From the NCBI RefSeq assembly GCF_021379005.1, contig NZ_CP075171.1:2728001-2792000 (forward strand): a stretch of 64,000 nucleotides of DNA, given 5' to 3'. This document shows positions 26,253 to 46,867 of the stretch, piece by piece (the first letter of the stretch is position 1; every line of letters begins with the position of its first letter). The DNA is from Leptodesmis sichuanensis A121 (GTDB taxonomy: Bacteria; Cyanobacteriota; Cyanobacteriia; Leptolyngbyales; Leptolyngbyaceae). Under the pieces are notes generated by a model. That model made no database searches and had not been told where the DNA came from. It saw only the letters and a program-made list of their open reading frames with translations. The position numbers and the translations under genes were made by a program.

Positions 26253-26325
26253 GCTGGTGTAGCTCAGTTGGTAGAGCAGCTGATTTGTAATCAGCCGGTC
26301 GCAAGTTCGAGTCTTGTCACCAGCT
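26253..26325 (+). tRNA. tRNA-Thr (UGU)
   Basis: Acceptor stem GCTGGTG pairs with CACCAGC (26318-26324). The D arm is AGCTCAGTTGGTAGAGC, the anticodon stem-loop GCTGA-TTTGTAA-TCAGC has anticodon TGT, and the T arm holds TTCGAGT. CCA is not encoded. The 3' part from 26278 is the attachment core of the island that follows. Confidence 0.95.
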
Positions 26326-26326
26326 T
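26278..26326 (+). other. attL: 49-bp attachment core
   Basis: From the anticodon stem to one base past the tRNA-Thr gene; identical to 44546-44594. Confidence 0.93.
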
Positions 26327-26502: not shown

Positions 26503-27657
26503 ATGTACTCCAAAACTCCAACTGGCAAAGCTTCTAAAGGTTCAGTTCAAGTTATCACTTCTCACGATCGGTTACAATTACGCTTTCGGTTTGCTGGAAA
26601 ACGGCACTATGTCTCTTTAGGTTTTCCAGATACGCAGGCGAACCGGAAGCTGGCAGAAATGAAAGCCAGAGAGATTGAACTTGATATTCTTGCAGGGCAC
26701 TTTGATCAAACCCTCGCCAAGTACAAGCCTCAATCATCGCTTAGTGTAACGTCCCCAGACATTAAACCCAAAGTTACACCCAGCCTTCCCGAACTCTGGA
26801 AGCGCTATAGCGAAACAAAGCAGTCCGGTAAATCTCCTGCCACAGTCAGGATGTATGGATGGGTTGCGAATCATTTAGAACGTTGTCCCTATAAACTTCC
26901 TTCAGAGGCACAGGCGATCTTTGACTGGCTGAATGCTAACGTGCCTGCCAATTCCACAAAGCGAGTTTTGATGCATTTGTCTGCTTGCTGTAAATGGGCT
27001 ACAAAGTCTGAGTTATTAGACATTGCAAACCCATTCGAGGGAATGGCAGCAGAGGTCAAGGTTAAAAAAGCTGGAACTGAAGAGGATGAAGTCTTTCCAT
27101 TCACAAAGGAGGAGCGCGATCGCATAATTGAAAGCTTCAAAACAAGTAGCTACTACGGTTGGTATGCTCCTCTAGTCGAATTTCTATTTTTTACGGGTTG
27201 CAGACCATCTGAAGCTTTAGCATTGCAATGGAAGCATATTAATTCTTCTACTATCACTTTCGAGCGCGGAGTTATATACGACGGGAAGGGGTTGGTGCTG
27301 AAAAATGGGTTGAAGACTCAGAAATTCAGAAAGTTTCCTATCAATTCTCAATTATCAGTGCTGTTGGAAGCTATTAAACCTGAACAATGTGACCCAGAGT
27401 CCTTAGTGTTTCCCAGCCCTAAAGGAAAATTTATCGACTGGCACAATTTTACGAATCGCGCTTGGAAAACCATTTTGAAGAGCTTACCAGATATTGAGTA
27501 TCGAAATCCTTATCAAACTCGGCATACCTTCTGTAGCCTATGCAGAGAAGCTGATATAGCCAGCATTCAGATTGCGAAGTGGGCAGGAAACTCAGCCCAA
27601 ATGATTGACCGAGTTTATGCAAAACCAACTGCCCATATCCAAGTTCCTAACCTCTGA
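26503..27657 (+). CDS. int: Site-specific tyrosine recombinase (integrase)
   Basis: 384 residues. The N-terminus has an arm-binding/DUF3596-like region (LQLRFRFAGKRHYVSLGFPDT), the middle a SAM-like core-binding domain (LWKRYSETKQSGKSPATVRMYGW), the C-terminus the catalytic domain. Catalytic residues visible: Arg in FFTGCRPSEAL, a Lys in the GLKTQKFRKFPI region, TRHTF (the usual first His of HxxR is Tyr: PYQTRHTF), a Trp/Gly in AKWAGNS and the nucleophile Tyr in DRVYAKP. It lies next to the intact tRNA-Thr target and should carry out insertion and excision of the island. Confidence 0.95.
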   Translation: MYSKTPTGKASKGSVQVITSHDRLQLRFRFAGKRHYVSLGFPDTQANRKLAEMKAREIELDILAGHFDQTLAKYKPQSSLSVTSPDIKPKVTPSLPELWKRYSETKQSGKSPATVRMYGWVANHLERCPYKLPSEAQAIFDWLNANVPANSTKRVLMHLSACCKWATKSELLDIANPFEGMAAEVKVKKAGTEEDEVFPFTKEERDRIIESFKTSSYYGWYAPLVEFLFFTGCRPSEALALQWKHINSSTITFERGVIYDGKGLVLKNGLKTQKFRKFPINSQLSVLLEAIKPEQCDPESLVFPSPKGKFIDWHNFTNRAWKTILKSLPDIEYRNPYQTRHTFCSLCREADIASIQIAKWAGNSAQMIDRVYAKPTAHIQVPNL

Positions 27658-31803: not shown

Positions 31804-31811
31804 AATACTCT

Positions 31812-32030
31812 TTACGCTTCGTTCATAGGCTCCGACGTGCGGGGGACTGACCTGGTCGATAAAAAAATACCGATTTGTGGCGACACATGGACTTGCATCT
31901 GCTCTCTCACCGTCGCTTCAATCTCGGCTAACGAACTCATCGGCAGACCTTGAGCTTGTGCGTCCTGGTGCAGAATTTGAGCGATCCGCGCGACATGTTG
32001 TTCAAGTTCCTGTTGTTGTTCTGGAGTCAT
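31812..32030 (-). CDS. ISKra4-family transposase, N-terminal part
   Basis: 72 residues, MTPEQQQELEQHVARIAQIL..., matching the usual N-terminus of ISKra4 transposases. It ends shortly after the T7 run (GIFLSTRSV in this frame, GIFFIDQVS in the -1 frame). It is probably the zero-frame product of a programmed frameshift or polymerase slippage. Confidence 0.8.
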   Translation of the reverse strand: MTPEQQQELEQHVARIAQILHQDAQAQGLPMSSLAEIEATVREQMQVHVSPQIGIFLSTRSVPRTSEPMNEA

Positions 32031-32399
32031 ACTGCTGATAGAGAAAGAGACCTATCTCTATGCTCATTTTTCTCCCCAAAAGGTGACACGCTCCCCTGAC
32101 AAACTGACAAAACTCCTGACAAAACCCCTGACAGTCCTGACAAGTTGCTGACAAAATTCATAGAAGCTGATGATGCATTGGCTCCTAATGAACAGGTCGT
32201 TGAGGCTGCAATCAACGATTTGTCAGGGAATGTCAGTGAAATTGTCAGTGAGTTTGTCAGTAAAGCGGAAGCCACAAATGGCAGGGCTTTAAGCCAATTT
32301 GTCAGGGTTGTCAGTGGAGGTGATTAAGCTGTTCAAATTGAGCGATCGCGTCTTTTGATTACCCTGGTAGTAATAGGTTGAATGGAGTGAAGTTTGCTT

Positions 32400-33500
32400 A
32401 TGGTTGCCAGTCCTGAAATTTGCCGAATCAATGGAGCGAAGTCGAGAGGGCCAATTACGCAACGGGGAAAAGCGATCGCCGCTCGCAACTCGACCAAACA
32501 TGGATTACTGGCTGAAAAACCACCGATTCTCGCCAGCGAGGATTTAGAAACATTTCAGGGATTGGTGCAAAGCTTGGTGGATTACTACCAACCCGAAGGG
32601 GCTGTGGAATGGCATTTTGTCCAAACGATCGCGATGTGCATTCAACGCCAGCATCGACTTTGGGCAGCAGAAGTAGCCCTGGGAAATGACCAGACGTTGC
32701 TACCCGTACCAAAGCCTTACACAGAAGATAAATATCCACACTTCAAACAGCCTGAGAACAGCGAACACTGGAGCAATTACCATCCGGCAAACCTGCTGCG
32801 AGAACGCAAGCTGTTAACCACGTTTCTGGAACATAACACTGTAGAGATGTTCCCAACTGAACGGCGCTCCAAGTACTTTGAGGATATGTGGGAGGAATGG
32901 ATTGCCGTGACGATGAAATACCTCAAGCGGCTAGAAGATGGATATCCGACTGACGGGATTCCTGGCAAACCAGATCGGGCCTTGGCCCTTGTCAGTCGGG
33001 AAACGTATGTGGATCGCTTTAATACCTGGATCGCAGACTTAAAGGCGAGTGGTCATCCGTTTGCTGAGTGCTGGTTCTATCGCATCTCTTTGCACGGAGC
33101 CGATGTCCCGAAGACAAAAGTCATGTGGGATTATTACTTTGAGAAGTACGTAGCTTTTTTAGATGCTTGCCGGAAACGGATCGAGCAGATTAATCAAGTT
33201 GAGCAGGAAATTGAGCAGGAACGCGATCGCTATCAGCAGGATCTGGCTCATCGTCAAGCCCTCACGGCTAGCCCAATTCCTCCGTCGGTTGTGTTGCTGA
33301 ATCGGTATGAGTCTCACATCTCAAAACAGTTAGAGAGAGCGATCGAACAGCTTCAAAATTTGCAGAATCAACGGAAGGATAAGGGTTCTATGGGTTCGTT
33401 TGGTCAAGATCCTGATCCCAGCCCCCTTACTCAAGTAGGTTCTCTTTCCTGTCAGGAGTTCTCCTGTTCGGGCACTGATTTCCAAAAGGGCGACAGTTAA
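32400..33500 (+). CDS. Mobile-element hypothetical protein
   Basis: 366 residues from the ATG at 32400; a TTG two codons earlier is possible. The N-terminus has a motif common in phage- and transposon-associated proteins (INGAKSRGPITQRGKAIAAR ... STKHGL). A coiled-coil segment (EQINQVEQEIEQERDRYQQDL) lies near the C-terminus. The last 30 residues look less conserved. No enzymatic motif recognised. It follows the insertion sequence and the original 3' end of the primase gene. Confidence 0.7.
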   Translation: MVASPEICRINGAKSRGPITQRGKAIAARNSTKHGLLAEKPPILASEDLETFQGLVQSLVDYYQPEGAVEWHFVQTIAMCIQRQHRLWAAEVALGNDQTLLPVPKPYTEDKYPHFKQPENSEHWSNYHPANLLRERKLLTTFLEHNTVEMFPTERRSKYFEDMWEEWIAVTMKYLKRLEDGYPTDGIPGKPDRALALVSRETYVDRFNTWIADLKASGHPFAECWFYRISLHGADVPKTKVMWDYYFEKYVAFLDACRKRIEQINQVEQEIEQERDRYQQDLAHRQALTASPIPPSVVLLNRYESHISKQLERAIEQLQNLQNQRKDKGSMGSFGQDPDPSPLTQVGSLSCQEFSCSGTDFQKGDS

Positions 33501-33761
33501 GCAGCAGCGTCCTTACCAAGGTGAATGACATCTTGACATCACTTTTCTCAAGCAGGGAGAAGAAATCACCAAACCTTCCATAAGGTTTTCGTGAAGAAAG
33601 AATCAAGATGAAATGGCGATCGCCTGATCCGGGGATAGTGCTGAAGTATTTGTAATAGGCTTCAGAAGTGATGGTTTACGTTTTGAGCCAAGTCAGTAGC
33701 TCATGCTGAGAGCAGTAAGGGTGTGTTTCCTGTACAAGATGCATCTAGTAGAGGGGCATGG

Positions 33762-34685
33762 ATGGAAGTCATTTCAACGCCTAAAGCGAACCCAGAGACT
33801 TTACTGGCTCTCATTCGCAATGTTTATGACGGACAGGTTGTAATTCCCAGGTTTCAGCGGCCTTTTGTTTGGAAGCGGGAAGACATTGAAGAGGTCTTAG
33901 CCTCGATTTTGCAGGGATACTTTATCGGCACCTTTCTAATGCTGGATACACCAGCCAAGAAGCCCATGTTTCCCTACACCACAGTAGAAGGGGTCAAACA
34001 CATCGAAGGAACGACTCGACCCCAGGAAAATGCAACTGTGCGGCTGGTATTGGATGGACAGCAGCGGATTACCTCGCTTTTTTACGCTCTCTATGGGCCT
34101 GATATTGCATTGAAGGGATCAAAGTATCCTCACACTTTTTTTCTAAGGTTGGATTACGCCTTAGCAGGGGATTTGGATGAAGCTGTGATCGGTGTGTCAA
34201 CGCAGAACCGACGAGTCATGAGTGAGATGAAAAGATTAGTTGACACCGATCAGGCCATTCCTTTCACCCGAATGCTGGACTCAGGGCATTTTTACCAGTG
34301 GCTGTATAGTGGGCAAAAGTCTTGGCAAGGCCAGGAACAGGAACAGGTCAAAGACTTATACGATCGATTTCAAAAGTTTATGGTGCCAGTGATTGCGCTA
34401 TCACCGGAAACCGGAAAAGACAATATCGTCAATATTTTTGAACGGATTAACCGGACTGGAGTTAGTCTTTCACTTTTTGATCTAGCAGTCGCGCAACTGT
34501 ACCTAAAAGGCATCAAGCTACGGGAACTTTGGGAGCAATTTGCCAGGAAGCATGAAGCCGTCACCTCGATTGTCAAGCCAGAGTTTCTGCTACGCCTCAT
34601 CGCCTTGGTGCAAGATCAGGAAGTCCGCCGTCGAACTCTTTTGAATTCCCTCGATGCCATAAGGAGCTTGCAAATAAATAAAATA
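33762..34685 (+). pseudogene. DUF262-HNH-EVE nuclease, 5' part (split by an insertion sequence)
   Basis: Start ATG at 33762 (MEVISTPKANPET). Residues 1-308 form a DUF262 (GmrSD/ParB-like) NTPase-nuclease domain: VVIPRFQRPFVWKREDIEEV, LVLDGQQRITSLFYALYG and FERINRTGVSLSLFDLAVAQL. The frame is cut at a TA dinucleotide (34684-34685) by an ISAzo13-type element. Removing 34686-35965 restores one open frame into 35966-37234. DUF262 proteins include GmrSD-type modification-dependent restriction enzymes and Bre-like phage-defence proteins; here the gene is probably inactive. Confidence 0.85.
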
Positions 34686-34761
34686 CCAGTCATTTTAGCG
34701 GGAGCAGAGCGGAAATATCCCTCTCCTGGCTGAGAATCTCTAGAACAACACTCTCCTTACC

Positions 34762-35232
34762 ATGCTCGACGACAAGATTAAAGCAAGCCTGAAAGATGCT
34801 GCTCGAAAGCTGACTGGACACCGTAAGCGAGATTTTATCGCAAAAGTTGCAGAGGACTATTTTGACGGTTCAGCCCGGAAAACGGAAACGGTTTTAGGGT
34901 GGAATCGCGCCAGTGTGCAACTGGGTCTGCATGAACGCCGCAGTGGAATCACCTGTGTTGATAACTATCGAGCTAGAGGGCGGCATAAAAGCGAAGTGGT
35001 GTTGGTCAATTTGGAAGCCGATATTGCCAGTTTAGTGGACAGGCAAGCCCAAGCTGATCCGAAATTTCAATCGACCTTCTTATATGCTCGTATCAGTGCC
35101 CAAGCCGTCCGAGATGCCTTAAGTGAGCAGAAGGGCTACGACGAGGAACAACTGCCTTCGCGTCAGACCATTGGGGCAATTCTCAATCGCATGGGATATC
35201 GCCTAAAAAAACACAAAAAGTCAAACCGTTGA
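34762..35232 (+). CDS. ISAzo13-family transposase, N-terminal ORF
   Basis: 156 residues: MLDDKIKASLKDAARKLTGH and a helix-turn-helix region (KTETVLGWNRASVQLGLHERRSG reads like recognition helices) followed by a second HTH (SRQTIGAILNRMGYRLKK). At the end the codons CTA AAA AAA CAC contain seven A (35205-35211). A -1 shift there reads KTQKVKPLKKIAQTDAIF and continues into the catalytic ORF. Confidence 0.85.
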   Translation: MLDDKIKASLKDAARKLTGHRKRDFIAKVAEDYFDGSARKTETVLGWNRASVQLGLHERRSGITCVDNYRARGRHKSEVVLVNLEADIASLVDRQAQADPKFQSTFLYARISAQAVRDALSEQKGYDEEQLPSRQTIGAILNRMGYRLKKHKKSNR

Positions 35233-35957
35233 AGAAGATCGCTCAAACCGATGCCATCTTTGACAATGTTGCTCAAGAGAATCAACGGGCTGATGCCAAT
35301 CCGAAGTCCTTGAGGCTCTCGATTGACACCAAAGCCAAAGTTAAGATCGGCAATCTATCGCGTAATGGCAAGGATCGCACTCTAGAAGCCAGAAAAGCCG
35401 ACGACCACGATAGTGAGTGGCAGTCGGTGTTAGTGCCTTTTGGCATTCTCAATCTCGACAACGACGAGTTGTCGATTTACTTCGGTCAATCGGCTGAAAC
35501 CAGCGATTTTATAGCCGATTGTTTGGAGTGGTGGTGGCAGGACAATCAAGACCATTACCCGGAGATTGAGGAATGGGTGATCAATTTAGATGGAGGACCC
35601 GCCACTCGCAGTGATCGCACTCAGTTCATCAAACGCATGGTTGAACTCGCCCAAACGATCATGCTCCCGATTCGATTGATTTACTACCCGCCTTATCACA
35701 GTAAATACAATGCCATTGAACGATGCTGGGCAGCGCTTGAGCAGTATTGGAATGGAGCCATCTTGGATTCGGTAGAAGCGGCAGTTCAATGGGCCAGTCA
35801 CATGACCTGGAAAGCAATGAATCCAGTCGTTTATCTGGTTGAAGGCATTTATGAAAAAGGGGTCAAGGTATTGGCTGAGGAGCTAGCAGATTATCTCCCT
35901 TTCTGGCAACGGTCTGAAGCTCTGCCCAAATGGGATATTACTATTCTCCCCGATTGA
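35229..35957 (+). CDS. ISAzo13-family transposase, catalytic ORF
   Basis: 242 residues as listed, overlapping the first ORF by four bases; probably made as a fusion by frameshifting at the A7 run. DDE residues are visible: RLSIDTKAKVKIG (Asp), WVINLDGGPATRSDRTQF (Asp) and YYPPYHSKYNAIERCWAALE (Glu). Confidence 0.87.
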   Translation: MKKIAQTDAIFDNVAQENQRADANPKSLRLSIDTKAKVKIGNLSRNGKDRTLEARKADDHDSEWQSVLVPFGILNLDNDELSIYFGQSAETSDFIADCLEWWWQDNQDHYPEIEEWVINLDGGPATRSDRTQFIKRMVELAQTIMLPIRLIYYPPYHSKYNAIERCWAALEQYWNGAILDSVEAAVQWASHMTWKAMNPVVYLVEGIYEKGVKVLAEELADYLPFWQRSEALPKWDITILPD

Positions 35958-35965
35958 TTGGGATA

Positions 35966-37234
35966 TTATTTAATTGCAAACCCCTAACTACTGATACCTT
36001 CCATGATCTCTGGCAGGAAGCGGTCGAGTCCATTGTGCAGGCTTACCAACGAATTACGACGGTCTATGGTGCTTTCAATCCTAGATGGATTCCCTACACA
36101 ACTTTGACTGTACCGTTAGCCGCCTTGCTTTTGAAACTCAAGAAAACCTCTGCTGGAGCCGAAGCCTACCAAAAAGTAGACTGCTGGTACTGGGGCTGTG
36201 TACTGGGCCAGCGTTATGATAGTGCCGTTGATACTAAGACTTATCAGGACTATCGAGATATAACTCAATGGATTGAGAACAAACGGGACAGTGCCCCCGA
36301 ATGGCTTCAGCGCCTCGCCCTCTCAGTTCAAAGCCTCAATATTGACACCGATGAACCTTACTCTACCCTCTACCGGGGGTTGATGGGGTTGATTGCTAAG
36401 CAGGGAGCCTGGGACTTCTCCACGGGACAACCCGCAGAACTCAATGACTGCCATGATGATCACATCTTTCCAAAGTCCATCTTTGGCTCAAACCATCCTG
36501 TTGATAGCTTGCTCAACCGGACTCTCATCTCGAAGGACACCAACAGGGCCAAAGGCAACAAGCTTCCTTCGGAATTTCTGGATGTGTTCTGGCAGAAACA
36601 TGGCAAGGATGACGTTAAGCTGCAAAAAACTCTCGCCACTCACTTTATTTCTTTGGATGCCTACGCCGCTCTCAAAAATACTGACTTTGAACGGTTCATC
36701 AGCGAACGGCGTAAGACTGTAGAAAAAGCCGTTAGGGACCTACTGGCTCTAGCCGAACCTGTGGATGTTGAGCCATCTTCTGAATCTGAAACGGTTTACT
36801 GGCTAACTCCAGTCCGATCGGATGAGGAAGAGAATGCAGAGACCGTGATTCAAACATTGGTTGGTGAAGAGGGTATTTACGCCTTTGGAGACAAAACTCC
36901 AGGCAGGCGAAATATTAAAGCAGGTGACTGGATTTGCTTTTATGCGACTGGCAAAGGGGTTGTGGCTCACGCTAAAGTCAGTTCCAGGCCAGACCGTAGA
37001 AAGATCCATCCACGGGTGCGGCACTCTGACAAATATCCTTGGGTTTTCACAGTAGAAGATGCTGTACTCTATCTCGATCAGCCGATCCCTGTTGATGAGT
37101 CTTTAAGAAGTCAGCTAGAAGCATTCGAGGGACGTGACCCCAGTTCCCCTTGGGCTTGGTTTGTACAGGCAACCCGCAAGGTTAGCCAGCAGGACTTCCA
37201 GCGATTAACTAAGGGTGAGAATGAACAGTTTTAG
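35966..37234 (+). pseudogene. DUF262-HNH-EVE nuclease, 3' part
   Basis: Continuation of the gene that starts at 33762 (together about 730 residues). It carries a DUF1524-like HNH domain (DDHIFPKSIFGSNHP ... LLNRTLISKDTNRAKGNKLP) and a C-terminal EVE/PUA-like domain (AGDWICFYATGKGVVAHAKV ... KYPWVFTVEDAVLY). EVE domains read modified bases, so the intact protein would fit a modification-dependent restriction enzyme. As a separate ORF it has no good start of its own. Confidence 0.8.
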
Positions 37235-37569
37235 GGTTTACTGGAAGGTACGATCGCTAAACTGCACCCCAACCTTGCAGTAAAAAGCCCGCCACAAAAG
37301 GCAGGCAACATCAGATGAGGGGGCTTCACGACTGAAAGTGACTTTAGTTTTCCCAACAGGATACGATCGCCAACCTTAGCAAGTTCAGTTAGTAAGTTAC
37401 CCTCTAAGAAAAACCTACTGAGCCTAAGTCGTAGTCGTGCAATACCATGCTCACCCGCTGAGGAATTCCAGGATAAACGTTATCAGGGCTGAAGTGAGGA
37501 TGTCCTGCCAGAACTTGTGGCGATCGCGCTTTTGGGTCGTTGTGTTACTTTTCTCCGTCATGACGATCG
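37235..37569. other. Gene-free stretch in the island
   Basis: 335 bp. No convincing ORF. It contains a GC-rich imperfect stem (GCCCGCC / GGCAGGC) near 37287-37305 and one HIP1 site; a small RNA cannot be excluded. Confidence 0.4.
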
Positions 37570-37785
37570 CTACTCCTCACTCTTGGCAAACTTCAGCCAG
37601 TCATTAGGTGTGGTTTCAGGGAAAGCTTTGGCGAAACCTTCCAAGACTTTGCCACTGGGAACTAGGGATGGATCTTTGTAGAGCCGATAAACAGTTGGCT
37701 CTGATAGCTCAGTGGCTTTCCAGAGGGCATAAGCCGTTAATCCCCTGGAATCTGCAAATTCTTTGACGCGATTGAGCACTTTCAT
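37570..37785 (-). CDS. Cro/C1-type helix-turn-helix repressor
   Basis: 71 residues. The HTH is clear: GLTAYALWKATELSEPTVYRLYKDPSLVPSG. It is related along its length to the protein at 44228-44443 (GITRYRFWQDTGLSRATAYRLCDDPTYIPTG). The ribosome site GGAGG lies within an 18-bp perfect inverted repeat that spans the start. Likely the lysogeny-type regulator of the island, acting on the divergent promoter region 37783-37892. Confidence 0.85.
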   Translation of the reverse strand: MKVLNRVKEFADSRGLTAYALWKATELSEPTVYRLYKDPSLVPSGKVLEGFAKAFPETTPNDWLKFAKSEE

Positions 37786-37892
37786 TCCTCCATACTCTCA
37801 CATTTATAGGGTATCCAATAAAGCTGATACCTTCAATAGCTTTATCTAATAAACTTGACAGTATCCTAAAAGTTTGAGAGTATGGAGGAATG
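37783..37892. promoter_or_regulatory. Divergent promoter/operator with 18-bp perfect inverted repeat
   Basis: CATTCCTCCATACTCTCA (37783-37800) is perfectly inverted as TGAGAGTATGGAGGAATG (37875-37892). Each arm ends in GGAGGAATG, so either transcript would carry the same ribosome site and start. Inside lie a second perfect repeat ATAAAGCT / AGCTTTAT (37818-37825 / 37838-37845), TTGACA on the plus strand (37855-37860) and TATAAA reading toward the minus gene. The pattern fits repressor control of both directions. Confidence 0.65.
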
Positions 37893-38034
37893 GGATACGA
37901 AACGGGTTCCGCTGCCACCAACAGGTGAGTGATGCCCCGGAAGCAGATTCCCTCAAATACCAACCAAGAGGCACCCGCCTCAACTGCCAAGTAAAGATCG
38001 GGTGCCCCACTCGCAAAACAACGAGGTAATTCAA

Positions 38035-38262
38035 ATGTTATCAGTCGCTATCGAACACCGCATTTTCATTGATCCGGTTTTCTACCAGGCAGGCTTCAAA
38101 GATGGCACTCGCTCCATGATGAAGGGTTCTCTTTGTGATAACCACAGCTACCTGGCAGGGTTTAACGCTGGAATTCGGCTCTATCGCTCGTCTATTCCCG
38201 ATGGTATCCAGGAAAGTTACCTGGAACGAGGCCACGGTGATGAGCTTCTAAATCCGCTGTAG
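38035..38262 (+). CDS. Small hypothetical island protein
   Basis: 75 residues from the ATG at 38035, preceded by ACGAGG. Sequence features: RIFIDPVFYQAGFKDGTRSM and SYLAGFNAGIRLYRSS, two similar 'GF..G' stretches that may be an internal duplication. No family recognised. First sizeable ORF to the right of the divergent operator, so it may be repressed by the Cro-like protein. Confidence 0.5.
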   Translation: MLSVAIEHRIFIDPVFYQAGFKDGTRSMMKGSLCDNHSYLAGFNAGIRLYRSSIPDGIQESYLERGHGDELLNPL

Positions 38263-38462
38263 ACCGATGGCTGTCTATACAAGGGCACTAGAGTTTGTCC
38301 AGTCACCGATTAATTAGCGCCGATGGGCGATCGCAGAGGAGGCAACCCGCGATCGCCTATTTCTGGCAGGTCAAGGGAGTGCCGTATGTCTCCCGATCCA
38401 ATCACTTCAATCCCCACTCACTTCACGGGGATGTCCACCAGACCAGATTTTGGAGAATTCTC

Positions 38463-38948
38463 ATGCAAGACATTCAAATCTTTCTCGACTATTTATCATT
38501 GTTACCTGTTGCTATTGCTTTTGCCCTGTTGCTGTTCCATCTGATGAACTGCTGGCAAGACACCGCTACCTCTAGCCAGAACGTAGGAGTGATCGCCTCT
38601 GATAGCAACGCCATGCCTGGACAATTCAACCCGCCTGATCCGGCTCGATTGGCTGAATTGCAACTGGAGGAGGTTTTAGCAGCCTGCCAACCGGAGCTAT
38701 GTAACCAGGAACCGAGCAGCATTCTGGAAATGATTGATCCCTGCAATGTTCTGGGGGTAAGACCAGAGCCGTGTGACCAGGCGGAAGCCAAACAGGGAAT
38801 CACGATTATGAACCCCAGCCGATTGAACTCTGAGCAACTGCGGAAAGAATGCTCCAAGCTGGGAATTCGATGGCGAAATGCGAAAGGCAAAGGCAAGCAC
38901 CTGACCCGACTTGAGATGCTGAATGCCTTGGGAAGAGCGATCGCCTAA
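38463..38948 (+). CDS. Membrane-anchored protein with SAP-like C-terminus
   Basis: 161 residues from the ATG at 38463 (MQDIQIFLDYLSLL). One N-terminal membrane helix (LLPVAIAFALLLFHLM), a Cys- and Pro-containing middle, and a C-terminal SAP-like helix pair (LNSEQLRKECSKLGIRWRNA ... LTRLEMLNAL) that often binds DNA. Function unknown. A hairpin GGGGACTG / CAGTCCCC follows at 38963-38982. Confidence 0.55.
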   Translation: MQDIQIFLDYLSLLPVAIAFALLLFHLMNCWQDTATSSQNVGVIASDSNAMPGQFNPPDPARLAELQLEEVLAACQPELCNQEPSSILEMIDPCNVLGVRPEPCDQAEAKQGITIMNPSRLNSEQLRKECSKLGIRWRNAKGKGKHLTRLEMLNALGRAIA

Positions 38949-38962
38949 CCCAAGTTTTTCAA

Positions 38963-38982
38963 GGGGACTGAAGGCAGTCCCC
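38963..38982 (+). terminator. Hairpin after the SAP-like gene
   Basis: Perfect 8-bp stem GGGGACTG-AAGG-CAGTCCCC without a T-tract; possible terminator between convergent genes. Confidence 0.45.
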
Positions 38983-39064
38983 ACCATCAACCCCTAACTC
39001 CGTCAAAAGCATGGTTAAAAATTTCTAAGTAAAATTTCTGCCGGATGGAAAAGAAGTTTGGGGG

Positions 39065-39538
39065 TCAGTACCCTGGAGACATAATTTTCTTACAGGTCAA
39101 CTCCATTCCCCGTGTAATGGCGCTATCTTGCACTACGGGTCTTTCCCCGGCACCCGCAGATTCTATAAGTGTTCCGTTCTTGTAGTAAGAAACTTTTTGC
39201 TCAAACGCCCGCCGTTCTCTACAAGCAAATCCGTAATCAATTTCAATCAGCCCTTGCTTGTCACTGGTCAGCATTGATAAAACGAACTTGTCTTGACTGG
39301 ACTTTTCCTCGTCCCAGTAGACTTTACGGCCATCCTGCAACGTTGCAACTGAAATTAATTTATCCAGATTGGTTGCTGATTTTGTAGGGGTAGCTGTAGG
39401 CGCTGTTCTATTGCACATCCGGCTCAGGTCAATCATTCGCCCGCTGGTATCGATCATGTAACAGGCTGGCTGAGCGATCGCAGGAGCAGCAAGCAAAGCG
39501 ATCGGAGCGGCAAGCAGGGCAACTTGTAGAAATCTCAT
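39065..39538 (-). CDS. Secreted hypothetical protein
   Basis: 157 residues with a clear signal peptide (LQVALLAAPIALLAAPAIAQ, cleavage after AIAQ or AIA). The mature part has four Cys (ACYMIDTSG, SRMCNRT, FACRERR, LTCKKI) that could form two disulfides, and a short Thr/Pro linker. No known domain recognised. Convergent to the SAP-like gene and not obviously linked to the mobile functions. Confidence 0.65.
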   Translation of the reverse strand: MRFLQVALLAAPIALLAAPAIAQPACYMIDTSGRMIDLSRMCNRTAPTATPTKSATNLDKLISVATLQDGRKVYWDEEKSSQDKFVLSMLTSDKQGLIEIDYGFACRERRAFEQKVSYYKNGTLIESAGAGERPVVQDSAITRGMELTCKKIMSPGY

Positions 39539-39764
39539 GGCATTGAGGGAATATAGAGGCTTCAGATCCTCAATACGCAGGGTCTATTCTACTTTCCCCA
39601 GAGATTAAGTGAAAATTGGATGAAGAAAAACTCAGTGGAAGGAGCTTTTTATCATCTCCCCTTGGAAATCGTCACCTATCTGCAATGCCCATGTGGAAGA
39701 AAAGTATTGGATTGAGGCAAGATGGAGTGTTATCAAAAGAGCGTAGATAAAGTTCCAGGTTGAT

Positions 39765-40682
39765 TTGCTACTGCATCTCACATCTCAGCCCCAACAACCT
39801 ATACTCTGCTTGGAAACGATCAGTGATCGGCCAAGCCATTATGACAAACTCTTCAGAATCTGCCATGAGATAGCTCAATTACCTGAAAACTGCCTCGACA
39901 TCACCATCGATTTTAACTACTGCGAATTCTTAGGTCATACGGGTGTCGCCTTCCTGGGTGGATTAGCCCATCTCATTCAGGCACGAGGTGGTCGCGTCAG
40001 TTTCAACTGGGATAGTCTCCGCTCAAATATTTGCATGAACCTGGCTCAAAATGGGTTTCTCTATCACTTTGGCTACGGCTCCTCATCGTGGGATGGTAAT
40101 TCAATCCCCTACCGCTACGACCTCCACTACAACGCTACTGCGCTCGGAGACTATCTCAGATACAAGTGGCTGGGAAAAGGGTGGGTCAATATCAGTTCAG
40201 GGTTACAAAAAGTAATCGCAGACAACGTCTTAGAAATCTACCTCAATGCCTTCGACCATAGCCAGTCTGAAATCGGTGTGTTTAGCTGTGGTCAACATTA
40301 TCCCAAACTGGAAATGCTGCACCTCACCGTCATCGACTTCGGAATCGGTATTCCTACCAGCGTCTGCTCCTTACCCCAAAACGTCCTTTTTACTGCCAAA
40401 GAAGCTCTATCCTGGGCGTTCGAGCCTGGAAACACCACAAAACAAAATGGCATTTCTCGCGGTTTAGGGTTAAATCTATTGCAGGAGTTCATAGCTAAAA
40501 ATCATGGAAACTTGATGATTTTCAGTAACAACGGCTATGTCGCCATAGACGATAATGGAATGAGATATGAGAACAAGGATATTAATTTTTCTGGAACGCT
40601 TGTAAACATTGCCCTTCGGTGCGATGAGCAGTATTACTGCCTAGCATCCGAAGTTCCGTCGATTGAGGAACCGCTGTTTTAA
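39765..40682 (+). CDS. GHKL ATPase with STAS-like N-terminal domain
   Basis: 305 residues from a TTG at 39765; no in-frame ATG exists before residue 91 and an in-frame stop lies at 39744-39746, so a non-ATG start is needed. Residues 45-100 look STAS-like (LDITIDFNYCEFLGHTGVAF). Residues 145-260 carry GHKL/HATPase motifs: N-box ExxxNA at 157-162 (LEIYLNAFDHS), G1 DFGIGIP at 191-197, G2 RGLGLNLL at 232-239. This is the fold of anti-sigma and histidine kinases, without a phospho-acceptor His domain. First gene of a tight three-gene set with a DUF4325 protein and a PIN nuclease. Confidence 0.8.
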   Translation: MLLHLTSQPQQPILCLETISDRPSHYDKLFRICHEIAQLPENCLDITIDFNYCEFLGHTGVAFLGGLAHLIQARGGRVSFNWDSLRSNICMNLAQNGFLYHFGYGSSSWDGNSIPYRYDLHYNATALGDYLRYKWLGKGWVNISSGLQKVIADNVLEIYLNAFDHSQSEIGVFSCGQHYPKLEMLHLTVIDFGIGIPTSVCSLPQNVLFTAKEALSWAFEPGNTTKQNGISRGLGLNLLQEFIAKNHGNLMIFSNNGYVAIDDNGMRYENKDINFSGTLVNIALRCDEQYYCLASEVPSIEEPLF

Positions 40683-40699
40683 CCGAGGGAGAGTCAGGC

Positions 40700-41047
40700 A
40701 TGAACTATAAGATCTATGAAATCACAGGAGAATACGCCACTGATGCCGATAGTGGGCAGCAGGTCTATGACCTCATTCATCCTGCACTCCTTGCTGGTAA
40801 CTCTGTAGAGCTAGACTTCAGCGGGATCAGTGTATTTGCGTCTGCTTTCTTCAACTTTGCGATCGGGCAACTCCTAAAAGACCTTTCTCCTGACACACTC
40901 AACAAACTTCTCAAAATCACAGAACTATCTCCTAATGGATACAGCATTCTGAAGCGCGTCGTTGAGAATGCCAAGCATTATTATTCAGATGTGCAATATC
41001 AAAATGCGGTAGATACTGTTCTGGAAGAGTACGCTGCCAGTTTCTAG
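40700..41047 (+). CDS. STAS-like protein (DUF4325)
   Basis: 115 residues, 17 bp after the GHKL gene, with GAGGGAGAG before the ATG. VELDFSGISVFASAFFNFAIGQLL is the DUF4325 signature: an anti-sigma-antagonist-like fold in which the Asp-Phe-Ser-Gly strand is followed by the helix normally bearing the phosphorylated Ser. DUF4325 proteins commonly sit next to GHKL ATPases, suggesting a partner-switch pair. Confidence 0.8.
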   Translation: MNYKIYEITGEYATDADSGQQVYDLIHPALLAGNSVELDFSGISVFASAFFNFAIGQLLKDLSPDTLNKLLKITELSPNGYSILKRVVENAKHYYSDVQYQNAVDTVLEEYAASF

Positions 41048-41050
41048 ACT

Positions 41051-41683
41051 ATGCCCATCAATCTCACCATTCAGGCGGAAGTCATTGACATTCGTAGCGA
41101 TACTCCACGCCAGGATGATATTTTTCTGGTCGATACCAATGTTTGGCTCTGGCAGACCTATACCAACGCGATCGCCTCGTCTCCCAATGCTCCTAACAAA
41201 ATTCGAGCCTATACTCCCTACCTCAGTAAGGCGCGAAGAAATGGGGCTACTTTGGTCTACTCTGGCTTAATCCTGTCAGAGCTTGCTCATGTTATTGAGA
41301 AAACCGAACGCCAGATTTATAACCAGCAGACTGGCATCACTCTGAATGCCAAAGAATATCGTCATAATTACCCTGCTGAACGGGCAAACGTCGTAGCAGA
41401 GGTTGAATCAGCTTGGAAACAGGTGGAAGGACTGGCGGTGCCAATTGATTTAGTGGTTAATGAAGAAATAACCAATGCTTCTCTAGCTCGATTCAAGTCT
41501 CAAGCCCTTGATGGTTACGACCTCCTGATCCTTGAAGCTATCCGCAGAGCAGGAGCAGGACAGGTCAAAGTGATCACAGATGACATGGATTATGCTGGTG
41601 TTCCTGACATTCAGGTTTTTACCCAAAACGGTTTGGTGATTCAACAGGCAACTTCACAAGGGAAGTTGCTTTCTACCCGATAA
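41051..41683 (+). CDS. PIN-domain nuclease-like protein
   Basis: 210 residues, only 3 bp after the DUF4325 gene. PIN acidic residues are in place: Asp28 (FLVDTNVW), Glu77 (LILSELAHVI), Asp154/Asp157 (ALDGYDLLILEA) and Asp177 (KVITDDMDY). It is longer than VapC toxins (about 130 residues) because of a helical insertion (about residues 85-130). Expected to be a metal-dependent RNase; the two upstream genes may control it. This combination is not one I know as a described system. Confidence 0.78.
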   Translation: MPINLTIQAEVIDIRSDTPRQDDIFLVDTNVWLWQTYTNAIASSPNAPNKIRAYTPYLSKARRNGATLVYSGLILSELAHVIEKTERQIYNQQTGITLNAKEYRHNYPAERANVVAEVESAWKQVEGLAVPIDLVVNEEITNASLARFKSQALDGYDLLILEAIRRAGAGQVKVITDDMDYAGVPDIQVFTQNGLVIQQATSQGKLLSTR

Positions 41684-41770
41684 TTACAGACGCAGATAAC
41701 AACCGAAAATACTTTTTTTACATAAAATTATAGATTAAGATTTCGTGAAGGCTGCAAATGTAGGGATATT

Positions 41771-41790
41771 TTAGAGAGAAGGTTCTCTAA
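41771..41790. promoter_or_regulatory. Palindromic operator-like site
   Basis: TTAGAGA-GAAGGT-TCTCTAA, perfect 7-bp arms, 15 bp before the start of the coiled-coil gene at 41806. Confidence 0.4.
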
Positions 41791-41805
41791 TTTATTTGGC
41801 ATCTG

Positions 41806-42174
41806 ATGATGGACGACAAGGCATTGTTCGACTACTGGCATCAACGAGTTGAGTTAAGAAACACCCATCTCTTGGATAGTCCTGAACATCTAAAAACGCC
41901 TACGCTGCGCCATGAATACACCAATTATGATGATCTTCGCTTCTTGAGAGAAGTTCAGCAGCTTGATGAACTAGAGCGCAGTAAAGTTATTGCCATCATT
42001 AAATATGAGTGTACTGCTAAAGTTCTCCAACACCGGGCAAGCAGACTTCGCGATCGCGCCAATAAGCTAGAAGATGCCTGCAACGAGCTAGACGAGAAAA
42101 AAACAAGCTACATAACATCATTAGGGCACTACAGAAAAAGCTATTTGGAAAGGATAAAGAGATTGAAAGGCTAG
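41806..42174 (+). CDS. Coiled-coil protein, zero-frame part (frameshift at A7)
   Basis: 122 residues as an open frame. Residues 1-100 (MMDDKALFDYWHQRVEL ... VQQLDELERSKVIAIIKYEC) look like ordinary coding sequence ending in a coiled coil (RASRLRDRANKLEDACNELDEK). At seven A (42097-42103) the coding potential moves to the -1 frame: KNKLHNIIRALQKKLFGKDK continues the coiled coil into 42404. Either one A has been lost or slippage makes a protein of about 199 residues. Function unknown; right part of the island. Confidence 0.6.
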   Translation: MMDDKALFDYWHQRVELRNTHLLDSPEHLKTPTLRHEYTNYDDLRFLREVQQLDELERSKVIAIIKYECTAKVLQHRASRLRDRANKLEDACNELDEKKTSYITSLGHYRKSYLERIKRLKG

Positions 42175-42197
42175 AAAAACGAATCAACAGCCTGGAA

Positions 42198-42404
42198 ATG
42201 GCAAACGAAGCCCTCCAAGCAGAAGCAGAACAAGGCAAAGCTCATGCAGAATTGCTTGCAGAGTTTGAGCAACTCAAAAAACAATACGAAACGGTCGAAA
42301 GGCAGAGACTCAAGCTCGCTAAGAATAATCAAACCCACTTTCCGCCCTTTAAGTGTCACACTCAAACATTTAACCCTGAAAGCCTTGCTGAGCAAAGAAT
42401 ATGA
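42198..42404 (+). pseudogene. Coiled-coil protein, -1 frame continuation
   Basis: The frame is open from 42093; the first ATG is at 42198 (MANEALQAEAEQGKAHAELL). It continues the coiled coil of the 41806 gene (KEIERLEKRINSLE before the ATG) and ends NPESLAEQRI. Unlikely to be a separate gene because it lacks a ribosome site. Confidence 0.55.
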
Positions 42405-42537
42405 GGCTATTAGTTCGCATGAACCATTAGAGCGCAGTTGAGAATAGATGCTGTTTATTGAGATAAATCTCTGGCCAAGGCTTCTGGGAGTCCGTGGCTG
42501 CGTCGTTAATCCCTGATGTGCCAGTTGAAAGTGCGGA

Positions 42538-42732
42538 ATGTGGGATCAAAGTCTAGGAGGAAGAGTTGCCCATACAGAACGCTACAAGCAGAAGCGTGAT
42601 GAAGCCATGAATCAGGTTCGAGAACTAAAGCAACAAATTCAGACTTTGAAAGAAGAAAATTCAAGCCTTCGTCAGGTAAATGATCAGTTAAGCAGCGAAC
42701 TTGAGAGACTTAAGAAACAGACCAAATTGTGA
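42538..42732 (+). CDS. Small coiled-coil protein
   Basis: 64 residues: basic start (RYKQKRDEAMNQV) and Leu/Gln/Glu heptads (RELKQQIQTLKEENSSLRQV). No ribosome site is visible and the 133 bp before it hold nothing recognised, so the start is uncertain. It lies directly ahead of the coiled-coil/HNH pair. Confidence 0.4.
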   Translation: MWDQSLGGRVAHTERYKQKRDEAMNQVRELKQQIQTLKEENSSLRQVNDQLSSELERLKKQTKL

Positions 42733-42751
42733 ATTGTGGAAATCAGAAGAA

Positions 42752-43147
42752 ATGAAGCTGGTTGAGCTAAAGGCAAAAGTCTACGAGTTGTCTGGAGTGG
42801 ACACAACTCAGCAACTCAAGGCTAAGTACAAGGATCTGAAGACGCTAGATATGCGGCGTAAGGATGCTTGGATGAAAGCGCTGTCCATCCTTCAAGATCA
42901 GCAAAAAGAATTTAACCACTGGTTAGAGAACCCACCAGAAGAGTACCAGCAGCTCTTTGCAGAAATTGAGGATGTTTCAAGGCTGTATGACCAGAAGCGA
43001 ACCGAGTTCAAACAAGTAGGGGCAGAAGTTAGGGCGATCGTGAGCGATCTTGAGGAGCTAGCAGGTGAATGTCAAGATGAGGCAACCACTTTAAGGCAGG
43101 AAGTTAAAACGGCAAGGCAAATTAAGAAAAAAATTCAACTGAATTAA
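42752..43147 (+). CDS. Coiled-coil protein paired with HNH nuclease
   Basis: 131 residues from the ATG at 42752 (MKLVELKAKVYELSGVDTTQ). The N-terminus looks like a small compact domain (KAKVYELSGVDTTQQLKAKY), then a long helical region with a conserved-looking LENPPEEYQQLFAEI segment and a C-terminal coiled coil. Its stop overlaps the HNH start by one base (TAATG), so the two are translationally coupled. It could be an immunity or sensor partner of the nuclease; this is inference. Confidence 0.6.
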   Translation: MKLVELKAKVYELSGVDTTQQLKAKYKDLKTLDMRRKDAWMKALSILQDQQKEFNHWLENPPEEYQQLFAEIEDVSRLYDQKRTEFKQVGAEVRAIVSDLEELAGECQDEATTLRQEVKTARQIKKKIQLN

Positions 43148-43761
43148 TGAGCATTACTCTGAACCTGATTAGAGACACGTTGAGCCAGTTGGGTGGTAAA
43201 GCGTCTTGTTGCGAAATTGCTGGAGCAATCCACCAACAAGGCTACGAGCAAAAATATTCAGAAGTAGATCTCACTGTCCGCAGAATTGTCTACACCCACT
43301 GCCCTCAACACGTTGAGGAATACCTTGGTCAACCAGTCTTTGAGGCATTGGATGCTCGGTACTACGGCTTCTGGAATCCCTCCAAGAAATACAGCGATCG
43401 CTATGTACAAGCACTTTACAGAAAAAAGCTGCTTAATTCCTGGAATACGTGCATGGTTACAGGAGTAAAGATTCAGTGCAAAGCTTCACACATCAAACCG
43501 CGCCATCAATGTACATCCCAAGAAGAGCAAATCAACGTGTTTAATGGTTTGCTACTCAGTCCTGCAATCGATGAACTATTTGACAAGGGACTAATCAGTT
43601 TTGACGAGCAAGGGCAAATCCTATTTGCTTCAGAGCTTAAGCTGCATGAAATTCAGCTATTAGGATTGTCAGATCGAATGAAACTGCGAGGGATTAGGAG
43701 TGGAAATCGTTATTTCCTCCAATACCACCGGAACAAAATTTTCCTCGGACAGGAAAAGTAG
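43147..43761 (+). CDS. HNH endonuclease with winged-helix-like N-terminus
   Basis: 204 residues. The C-terminal half is an HNH/HNH_2-type nuclease: SWNTCMVTGVKIQCKASHIKPRHQ (His115 in the ASHIKP motif), NVFNGLLLSPAIDELFDKGLI (Asn133, Asp142) and FDEQGQILF. Residues 1-60 (TLSQLGGKASCCEIAGAIHQQGY ... DLTVRRIVYTHC) look like a winged helix. This build is seen in restriction-like and defence nucleases. Coupled to the coiled-coil protein before it. Confidence 0.8.
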   Translation: MSITLNLIRDTLSQLGGKASCCEIAGAIHQQGYEQKYSEVDLTVRRIVYTHCPQHVEEYLGQPVFEALDARYYGFWNPSKKYSDRYVQALYRKKLLNSWNTCMVTGVKIQCKASHIKPRHQCTSQEEQINVFNGLLLSPAIDELFDKGLISFDEQGQILFASELKLHEIQLLGLSDRMKLRGIRSGNRYFLQYHRNKIFLGQEK

Positions 43762-43846
43762 TCTCCTTAGTAGATTAATCTACTATAAAAGTAAATGCCC
43801 GGTATCCTCATTACCGGGCTTGAGGAGAATTAGATTAGACCGCAAG

Positions 43847-44095
43847 TTACTCAAAAAGATTTATTCGTTTGGTCAGGATCTGCATGACCTCACCCTGGTT
43901 AATGGTTGGAAGCGGCCTAGACCATTCATCTGGTCTTGCGTAGCCATACTGGAACAAAGTCATTACGAAGAAATGCACCACTTGCGGGCTTCCGATCGCC
44001 AGCACCCGCAGAATGTCAGGAGAAGGGCGATCGCGTAAATCGATAAAAGGTAGTTCAGAGGAAAGAGCCTCTTGATTACGCGGGTTCTCTGTCAT
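43847..44095 (-). CDS. Small conserved cyanobacterial protein, unknown function
   Basis: 82 residues from the ATG at 44095 (MTENPRNQEALSSELPFIDL). The pattern LPFIDL.DRPSP.ILRVLAIGSPQVV ... YGYARPDEWSRPLPT ... GEVMQILTKRI recalls a family of roughly 80-100-residue proteins often found in cyanobacteria, in many copies. No function is known to me. Confidence 0.6.
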   Translation of the reverse strand: MTENPRNQEALSSELPFIDLRDRPSPDILRVLAIGSPQVVHFFVMTLFQYGYARPDEWSRPLPTINQGEVMQILTKRINLFE

Positions 44096-44173
44096 GATAG
44101 TTTCAACTCCATCTAGGGGTAAGCCATCGCGATCGCCGACCAAAGCTGAAGCGATGGCTTTTTGACACCCCTA

Positions 44174-44211
44174 TATTCTCATTTTTTAGACATAGCGGCA
44201 AGATGAGAATA
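44174..44211. promoter_or_regulatory. Operator of the right Cro-like gene
   Basis: TATTCTCAT (44174-44182) inverted as ATGAGAATA (44203-44211), just upstream of the start at 44228. The half-site TGAGA(A/G)TA is shared with the operator arms at 37783-37892. Confidence 0.6.
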
Positions 44212-44227
44212 CTGGCACCATTAAGGG

Positions 44228-44443
44228 ATGGGAGCAAAAAACCGCATTATGGAACTCTTAGCCCAGCAGGGCATTACCCGGTATCGTTTTTGGCAAGACA
44301 CCGGGTTGAGTCGGGCAACCGCCTACCGCCTTTGTGATGATCCAACTTATATTCCTACTGGGGAAGTGATTGAAAAGATTTGTCGTGCTTATGACTGGCA
44401 GCCGGGAGACTTCATTATTTATGAGCCGGATGGGGAGAAGTAG
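44228..44443 (+). CDS. Cro/C1-type helix-turn-helix protein
   Basis: 71 residues: GITRYRFWQDTGLSRATAYRLCDDP is the HTH, and the end QPGDFIIYEPDGEK is typical of short C1-like regulators. Paralogue of the repressor at 37570-37785. The gene lies close to the right end of the island and may control exit from integration or the nearby nuclease genes. Confidence 0.85.
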   Translation: MGAKNRIMELLAQQGITRYRFWQDTGLSRATAYRLCDDPTYIPTGEVIEKICRAYDWQPGDFIIYEPDGEK

Positions 44444-44480
44444 TAAGAAGCTTTGTGAAGCTTAGATGAAGCTGAACGGT

Positions 44481-44501
44481 TTGGGTGTAATTTGGGTGTA
44501 A
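44481..44501 (+). promoter_or_regulatory. Probable integrase arm-type sites, right
   Basis: TTGGGTGTAA at 44481-44490 and 44492-44501, the same motif and 11-base period as at 26444-26464, 44 bp from the right attachment core. Confidence 0.6.
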
Positions 44502-44545
44502 GAATTCGCGAAAAAGCCTCAAATACCTGCAGAAAAAGGATTGAT

Positions 44546-44594
44546 AGCTGATTTGTAATCAGCCGGTCGCAAGTTCGAGTCTTGTCACCAGCTT
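44546..44594 (+). other. attR: 49-bp attachment core (tRNA-Thr fragment)
   Basis: Identical to 26278-26326. It holds the tRNA-Thr sequence from the anticodon stem to the 3' end but no acceptor 5' strand or D arm, so it is not a tRNA gene. Confidence 0.93.
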
Positions 44595-44854: not shown

Positions 44855-45832
44855 TTAGTACAGGTAGTTGGCGGCTACCCAATTTCCATCGGGCAATTGT
44901 TCCCAGGCATAACCATCCCGGTAGACGGTGCCATCTACGGTGGGCAGGTAAGTGCCATCGGGAACCGCAGTTTCAATGCAGTTGTCCAGACCTGGCCCAC
45001 GGCGAATATTCAAGCCAATCCCCGAACGGGTTGCCACATACCCGCCGCCATTGCTATAGGAATAGGGGCTGTAGTAATAGTCGTCGTAAGGCGAGCCGTA
45101 GCAGTCTTCGTAGCTGTAATCCTGGTAGTAGCGATCGCAGGGATCGTAGCTTGTTTCTTCATAGTAGCGATCGCACGGATCATAATTCTGCGGCTCATAG
45201 CAAGGATCGTAGCTGGTGTCCTGGTAGTCACAGTCGCAGGGATCATAGCTAGTAGGTTGGTAGCAAGGGGTGACATAATCCGTAGCGACCCAGGCTGTCT
45301 CACCAATGCGTTGCCAGGTGTAGTACCGTTCAACTGGGTAACCAAATGTTTCTATAACTGTGCCATCTTCTAACCCGCCAATTCGCCGGAAATTGATTCC
45401 AGGGCCGCTCCGAACATTCAACCCAATCCCCGTATTGGTGTCAACGTACCCTAAATAAGTAGGCTGGTATTTTTCATCTAAACCGAGAGCCGTTGCCGTT
45501 TCTTTACCGACAATGCCATCTACCTGCTTCAGTCCCTGACGAATTTGAAAATCCATGACTGCGGCTTCGGTCTGAGATCCAAACTGTCCGTCGGCTTCAA
45601 TTCCCAGTGCTTTTTGCACATGGGTGACTGCTGCGCCAGTACTCCCCTGTGCGATCTCCGAGGTTGCAGCCGCTGCCTTGTTGGGGGTCGCACTCACTGC
45701 TGCTACAGCCAGAGCCACCCCTGCTAAGGCTACTCCGGTTGACCCTGGCATTTTGATATCTAAAGTTAATTCTGGATCAGGGGTGAGATCTTCATAACTG
45801 GCCGCATTGTGAACAAACGCTAGAAACTCCAT
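44855..45832 (-). CDS. Peptidoglycan-binding / SH3 protein with Cys-Tyr-Asp-rich repeats (copy 1)
   Basis: 325 residues, ATG after AGGAGG. A hydrophobic Ala/Val stretch (GVALAGVALAVAAVSATP) after about 32 residues may be an export signal. Then PG_binding_1 (GAAVTHVQKALGIEADGQFG ... AVMDFQIRQGLKQVDGIVG), a bacterial SH3 domain (GLNVRSGPGINFRRIGGL), a repeat region of YDPCDRYY-type units, and a second SH3 domain (GIGLNIRRGPGLDNCI). Probably envelope-associated. Copy 2 lies next to it; this copy keeps the C-terminal SH3 domain that copy 2 lacks. Confidence 0.85.
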   Translation of the reverse strand: MEFLAFVHNAASYEDLTPDPELTLDIKMPGSTGVALAGVALAVAAVSATPNKAAAATSEIAQGSTGAAVTHVQKALGIEADGQFGSQTEAAVMDFQIRQGLKQVDGIVGKETATALGLDEKYQPTYLGYVDTNTGIGLNVRSGPGINFRRIGGLEDGTVIETFGYPVERYYTWQRIGETAWVATDYVTPCYQPTSYDPCDCDYQDTSYDPCYEPQNYDPCDRYYEETSYDPCDRYYQDYSYEDCYGSPYDDYYYSPYSYSNGGGYVATRSGIGLNIRRGPGLDNCIETAVPDGTYLPTVDGTVYRDGYAWEQLPDGNWVAANYLY

Positions 45833-45940
45833 ACGCTCCTCCTGGGTAGAAACGAGACAAAGGAGGTAGCCACCATGAAAACAACAATCTGTTCATGATG
45901 ACTACCAAGATTAATATTCAGTTGTAGTTTTAGCTAACGG

Positions 45941-46867
45941 CTAGTAGCAATCGCAGTCATCATAGGAGTAACCGCAGTCATCATAGGAGTAACAGCGTGG
46001 TTCGTAGTAGCGATCGCAGGGGTCGTAGCAATCATCATGGTAGTAACTGCGTGGCTCGTAGTAGCAATCGCAGGGATCCCAGCGTCTCGGCTCATAGTAG
46101 TGATCGCAGGGGTCGTAGCAATCCCACCCGCGCGGCTCGTAGTAACGATCGCAGGGGTCATAGCAATCATCATAGCTATAGCGATCGTAGTAATAGTCGT
46201 CGCAGGGATCCCACCGTTTTGGCTTGTAGTAGTAGTCATGGGAGTCGTAACAGTCATCCCAACGATCCCAGCCTCTGGGTTCATAGTAGGAAGGCTCGAC
46301 ATAGTCCGTGGCAATCCACGCATTATGACCAATACGCTGCCAACTGTAGTACCGCTCAACAACAGGGCCAAAGGTTTCTACATAGGTGCCATCGGATAAA
46401 CCACCAATTCTACGGTAGTTAATCCCAGGGCCACTCCGCACATTCAGCCCACAACCGCTGCAAGTATCCACATAGCCACTAAAACCGAAGTGGGTTGGTT
46501 GATACTTTTCATCTAAACCCAGTGCTGTGGCAGTTTCCTTACCCACTACACCATCGACTTGCTTCAACCCCTGGCGAATTTGGAAGTCCATTACTGACGC
46601 TGCAGTGATGGGACCAAATTGACCATCGGCTTCAACTCCCAGGGCTTTTTGTACATTGGTGACGGCATCACCAGAACTGCCCTGAGCGATCGCAGGCGTG
46701 GCTGCAGAAGCCTTGCTAGGAGAAGCACTAACCGCCGCTACAGCGAGTGCAACACCAGCCAATGCGACTCCAGCAGAGCCTGGCACCTTGATATCTAAAG
46801 TTAACTCTGGATCAGGGGTTGGATCTTCATAGTTCACAGAACTGTGAACAAAAGCTAGTAACTCCAT
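45941..46867 (-). CDS. Peptidoglycan-binding / SH3 protein with Cys-Tyr-Asp-rich repeats (copy 2)
   Basis: 308 residues, tandem paralogue of the gene at 44855-45832 with the same N-terminus (YEDPTPDPELTLDIKVPGSA versus YEDLTPDPELTLDIKMPGST), PG_binding_1 and first SH3 domain (CGLNVRSGPGINYRRIGGL). The C-terminal 110 residues are degenerate repeats like DPCDRYYEPRGW and DPCDHYYEPRRW, very rich in Tyr, Asp, Cys, Arg, and end without a second SH3 domain. The tail could crosslink through Tyr/Cys or bind metals; no evidence beyond composition. Confidence 0.82.
   Translation of the reverse strand: MELLAFVHSSVNYEDPTPDPELTLDIKVPGSAGVALAGVALAVAAVSASPSKASAATPAIAQGSSGDAVTNVQKALGVEADGQFGPITAASVMDFQIRQGLKQVDGVVGKETATALGLDEKYQPTHFGFSGYVDTCSGCGLNVRSGPGINYRRIGGLSDGTYVETFGPVVERYYSWQRIGHNAWIATDYVEPSYYEPRGWDRWDDCYDSHDYYYKPKRWDPCDDYYYDRYSYDDCYDPCDRYYEPRGWDCYDPCDHYYEPRRWDPCDCYYEPRSYYHDDCYDPCDRYYEPRCYSYDDCGYSYDDCDCY

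Follow-up and report, generated by a model that had tools for sequence, protein, structure and literature searches.

The window analysed here, i.e. the whole stretch of 64,000 nucleotides of Leptodesmis sichuanensis A121 DNA, carries a cassette of three intact genes on the forward strand, which are separated by gaps of 17 and 3 bp and follow the order STAS+GHKL protein, DUF4325 STAS protein and PIN nuclease. The positions of the genes, of their key codons and of the surrounding features are listed in Table 1. The first-pass annotation had described three such closely spaced genes on a mobile island, with a PIN protein that retains all of its acidic residues, and this description has been borne out: the genes by their open reading frames and domain matches, the acidic residues by their presence in the translated protein, and the island by exact 49-bp tRNA-Thr repeats together with a tyrosine integrase. 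The same annotation knew of no described system with this gene set and regarded it as a candidate new system, a claim that no longer holds: the set was named VapKSC in June 2026 (Chambers et al., EMBO J, PMC13373217) and has been partly solved, the VapS-VapC complex being PDB 9Z7O. By homology, the cassette is very probably a vapKSC operon of Leptodesmis, i.e. a kinase-controlled three-gene toxin-antitoxin system, and its genes are referred to below as vapK, vapS and vapC.

Table 1. Features of the cassette and of the integrative element that surrounds it, in window positions.
Feature	Position	Strand	Description
tRNA-Thr-TGT	26253-26325		
Left attachment-site copy	26278..26326	+	3' end of tRNA-Thr-TGT plus one following base; 49-bp exact direct repeat
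Tyrosine recombinase (integrase)	26503..27657	+	Phage_integrase and Arm-DNA-bind_2; just inside the left repeat
vapK	39765..40682	+	305 aa, TTG start; STAS + GHKL protein, predicted ssDNA-responsive serine kinase
Phe55 codon	39927..39929	+	Proposed equivalent of Escherichia VapK Phe54 / CapK Trp68 (putative ssDNA-stacking residue)
Asn161 codon	40245..40247	+	N-box asparagine of the kinase domain; invariant in alignment A3
vapS	40700..41047	+	115 aa; DUF4325 STAS-like antitoxin; matches Pfam DUF4325 and PDB 9Z7O chain A
Ser48 codon (TCT)	40841..40843	+	Predicted phosphoacceptor; aligned with the S48-equivalent serine of 9Z7O chain A
vapC	41051..41683	+	210 aa; PIN nuclease toxin; matches PDB 9Z7O chain C
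Asp28 codon (GAT)	41132..41134	+	Catalytic aspartate, equivalent to Escherichia VapC D28; alignment ungapped there
Right attachment-site copy	44546..44594	+	49-bp exact direct repeat; closes the 18.3-kb element

Genes of the cassette and their conserved residues

The product of vapC matches the Pfam PIN family weakly (E 0.018, below the cut-off), and in a phmmer search it matches the Escherichia VapC (PDB 9Z7O chain C) over residues 6-207 with an E-value of 7.7e-44; Asp28 carries the same residue number as in Escherichia and is invariant in the alignment of relatives (alignment A1), and the PIN acidic residues D28, E77, D154, D157, D178 and D180 are all present. The product of vapS is matched by Pfam DUF4325 (E 2.3e-18) and by the Escherichia VapS (PDB 9Z7O chain A; E 2e-18), with an alignment that extends to residue 112 of 115; its C-terminal region is short, the DUF4325 domain being followed by a short tail, and Ser48 has the same residue number as in the Escherichia protein.

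VapK matches the Pfam family HATPase_c with an E-value of 1.3e-5, just under the curated cut-off, and, N-terminal to this GHKL domain, it matches STAS_2 weakly (E 0.02). The GHKL motifs are intact in VapK and kept in its relatives: the N-box (E157/N161/H165), the D191-x-G193-x-G195 motif and the G233-x-G235 motif. The protein begins directly with the STAS region, with no N-terminal HTH found in the Pfam scan. The AlphaFold model of VapK, built from five input sequences, is poor (pLDDT 54), and its PDB matches lend weak support only: the N-terminal part matches SpoIIAA (1H4Y), while the remainder matches GHKL ATPases; a search of the PDB with the VapK sequence has found no relative. Position 55 is aromatic in every intact homologue examined, being occupied by F, Y or W (Deinococcus, viral contigs); Phe55 of the window protein probably corresponds to Escherichia VapK Phe54.

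The nearest relative (L001/L066) carries the same operon, with identities of 59% for VapK, 77% for VapS and 79% for VapC, and its comparison with the window operon by the LWL85 method gives dN and dS values of 0.31 and 1.40 for vapK, 0.12 and 1.49 for vapS, and 0.13 and 1.60 for vapC; with dN well below dS in each case, all three genes are under purifying selection. The genome contains a single vapC and a single DUF4325 gene.

The integrative element

The cassette lies inside an 18.3-kb element (window 26278-44594) that is integrated at tRNA-Thr(TGT). The cargo of the element looks defence-like, because it includes an HNH nuclease gene, a DUF3987 primase-like gene and a restriction gene of the GmrSD type that a transposase seems to have divided. 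The GmrSD-type gene (33723-37234) encodes GmrSD_N at 33723-34733 and HNH_4 plus EVE at 35930-37234, and appears to be interrupted by a transposase of the ISAZ013 type, whose two ORFs overlap (34762-35957); inverted repeats flanking the transposase within this gene were looked for and not found. Just downstream of vapC, at 41806-43147, several short ORFs with a coiled-coil-like character follow one another in different frames (41806, 42198, 42538 and 42701) and look like what is left of a decayed gene or genes. Directly outside the element, at 44855-46867, two adjacent paralogous proteins are encoded, which share their N-terminal start and continue into Cys/Tyr/Asp-rich repeats.

Kinase-bearing and kinase-free loci in other genomes

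The genome sets searched for VapC overlap: matches occur in 24 of 386 genomes from the cyanobacterial phylum and 26 of 390 from the class, and, at narrower ranks, in 77 of 218 from a single family and 31 of 245 from a single order. Intact loci with vapK, vapS and vapC in this order (K-S-C) and with short gaps occur across cyanobacterial families and in two genomes outside the class (L064 and L065); a full set, found with the VapK query, is located on a Deinococcus gobiensis plasmid, and complete sets are also present on 7 IMG/VR viral or prophage contigs, some of them beside apparent recombinase genes; tblastn searches of plasmids and phages with the window and Escherichia VapC have given no match. 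The search for co-occurrence of the three families has found the K-S-C order in dozens of genomes, so the arrangement is not due to chance. Broken or remnant copies of vapK and/or vapC are seen at cyanobacterial loci L042, L054, L059, L060, L061, L062, L097, L117 and L129; the operon decays often in related cyanobacterial loci.

Among the 90 loci that have a usable VapC and enough upstream sequence, vapK is intact in 47 and is absent or a broken remnant in 43; the window locus is of the kinase-bearing form. Pairs of vapS and vapC with an intact toxin and no upstream vapK are found at L051, L052, L053, L058, L068, L074, L076, L091, L100, L113, L118-L120, L126, L128, L131, L133, L135, L137, L138, L140 and L143. 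VapS position 48 is Ser or Thr in 47/47 kinase-bearing loci vs 34/43 kinase-less loci (Fisher p 8e-4, viral contigs excluded), the other 9 of the 43 having Ala or Pro (L052, L053, L076, L120, L126, L128, L140 and L143) or, in the more distant L146, Trp. When the viral contigs are added, the counts become 55/55 and 37/52 (Fisher p 6e-6), with no VapC neighbour detected for 6 of the 7 added kinase-less proteins that lack Ser/Thr, which may not be VapS; both p-values count related sequences and ignore their relatedness. The VapC tree shows 24 changes of kinase state and 6 of serine state; of 12 phylogenetically independent pairs, 0-3 have the serine following the kinase and none shows the opposite, numbers that are too few for significance. 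The association supports a link from the kinase to the serine.

Viral contigs also encode DUF4325 proteins for which VapK and VapC neighbours were not detected (L151-L156). Their phosphoacceptor position is occupied by Pro, Met or Glu, and one of these proteins (L154) forms the C-terminal end of a longer open frame.

A kinase encoded elsewhere in the genomes of the kinase-free loci has been considered and set aside: no full-length VapK-like gene was found in those kinase-less genomes that were searched whole, where the only trace was a 129-aa partial GHKL match in one genome. A search for a divergent kinase upstream of kinase-less vapSC was likewise negative. That the kinase is lost before the serine is suggested by vapK remnants lying next to intact vapSC in which the serine is still present. 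There is perhaps an even chance that vapSC pairs have repeatedly shed their kinase and that some of them have then lost the phosphoacceptor serine, becoming stand-alone STAS-antitoxin/PIN-toxin modules that would be unresponsive to ssDNA. The occurrence of vapSC lacking an intact vapK in about half of the related loci, with this serine pattern, appears to be new: the published loci were collected by searches starting from VapK, which placed kinase-free pairs outside their reach, and the VapKSC section of that paper does not mention such pairs (PMC13373217).

The predicted switch and its alternatives

In the published vapKSC, a STAS-GHKL kinase resembling CapK is encoded together with a STAS antitoxin and a toxin that resembles VapC; the system was found 289 times, 36% of the occurrences being within 10 kb of another immune gene (PMC13373217). 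In Escherichia, VapS and VapC form a 2:2 complex; VapC is toxic unless D28 is mutated, and VapS suppresses this toxicity through its C-terminus, with inhibition and binding being lost in the S48E variant and inhibition being lost upon C-terminal deletion (PMC13373217). Against phage Bas42, the Escherichia operon protects by about 2 logs, for which VapC D28, VapS S48 and VapK F54 are needed; the activation of VapK by ssDNA is deduced from CapK, from an AlphaFold 3 model and from the F54A result, and is unproven because the protein is insoluble, and it is through the CapK analogy and modelling that VapK is proposed to phosphorylate VapS directly and RNA is proposed as the target (PMC13373217). 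The window locus has in common with Escherichia the three-gene order, the domain set, VapS Ser48, VapC Asp28 and a defence-linked context, and probably also an aromatic residue, Phe55, at the putative VapK ssDNA-site position; it differs in its cyanobacterial host and in small length differences.

By homology with these systems, the entire mechanism in this cyanobacterium, including the ssDNA signal and the RNA target, may be as follows: at rest, VapS would bind VapC with a STAS face that buries Ser48, and the C-terminal helix of VapS, located near the VapC active site, would keep the PIN ribonuclease off; upon DNA damage or phage replication, ssDNA would be accommodated in VapK between its STAS domain and its GHKL domain, activating the kinase; the active VapK would phosphorylate Ser48, VapS would leave VapC, and the freed VapC would cleave cellular RNA, stopping growth before phage maturation. 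The GHKL/STAS partner switch that holds or frees a nuclease, as envisaged in the first-pass annotation, coincides with the published VapKSC model (PMC13373217). The "sensor pair" of the first-pass annotation differs from it in one detail, the predicted sensor being the STAS-GHKL kinase alone and the DUF4325 protein being the antitoxin and kinase substrate; abortive infection, offered as an example, is plausible, the published VapKSC showing phage protection and VapC toxicity that is suppressed by VapS (PMC13373217).

It is unlikely, while deserving some weight, that the operon is a relative of VapKSC in which the same release of VapC from VapS is controlled by a kinase that senses another signal, e.g. 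a phage protein or a nucleotide signal. No VapK has had its signal demonstrated biochemically, and VapK sequences diverge from clade to clade, the identity to the homologues from Deinococcus and from outside the class being 25-29%; against this, the putative ssDNA-stacking position is aromatic throughout the intact homologues, and F54A abolished protection in Escherichia (PMC13373217). A little less probable again is an addiction module, i.e. an operon that chiefly stabilises the 18.3-kb integrative element, with phage protection being secondary. Toxin-antitoxin pairs commonly stabilise integrative elements, the operon lies within an element that has an integrase and whose att repeats are intact, and kinase-free vapSC persist in many genomes. 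Addiction, however, needs no kinase, whereas purifying selection acts on vapK in the window lineage, and the published vapKSC protects against a phage (PMC13373217).

The preferred reading, a post-translational switch of the VapKSC type, can be set beside the known systems that it resembles. In CapK/CapS, a STAS-GHKL kinase that is triggered by ssDNA likewise acts on a STAS protein in which a Ser is conserved, but CapK has an N-terminal HTH, CapS has a C-terminal winged helix, and the output is transcription rather than the release of a nuclease. A transcriptional regulator of this type is very improbable at the window locus, in spite of the homology of its kinase and STAS modules to CapK/CapS (PMC13373217): the Pfam scan has found neither a winged helix on VapS nor an HTH on VapK, the lengths of the proteins leave no room for them, and the match of VapS to 9Z7O chain A runs nearly to the C-terminal end of VapS. 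SpoIIAB/SpoIIAA (RsbW/RsbV) also pairs a GHKL serine kinase with a STAS protein that it phosphorylates, and the N-terminal domain of VapK resembles SpoIIAA; VapKSC differs in that the partner set free would be a nuclease toxin instead of a sigma factor, and in that unphosphorylated VapS inhibits its partner, whereas an unphosphorylated SpoIIAA-type STAS protein frees its partner. With VapBC, the operon shares a PIN-domain toxin that is held by an antitoxin from the same operon, but the neighbour of the PIN gene is a DUF4325 gene instead of one for a small DNA-binding VapB, release would occur via phosphorylation instead of proteolysis, and the window VapC is a weak match to Pfam PIN. Matches of the cassette proteins to DrmA and CARF have been set aside as weak domain-level resemblances, as have DefensePredictor DS-3 and DS-5, which also use PIN domains and for which STAS/GHKL partners are not described.

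Searches of the three proteins with PADLOC (PADLOC-DB 2.0.0) and NCBIfam have returned no useful match and none that names the system; since PADLOC-DB gives no such name and the Pfam PIN match falls below its cut-off, our result is useful for annotation. The finding adds a cyanobacterial mobile element to the known carriers of an anti-phage toxin-antitoxin system that was described only recently; of the functional residues tested in Escherichia, VapC D28 and VapS S48 are kept there, and the VapK aromatic probably is as well. The relatives put the proposed phosphorylation switch to an independent test in nature, with the target serine being lost only where the kinase is missing, and they suggest that the module breaks up into toxin-antitoxin pairs that lack the kinase.
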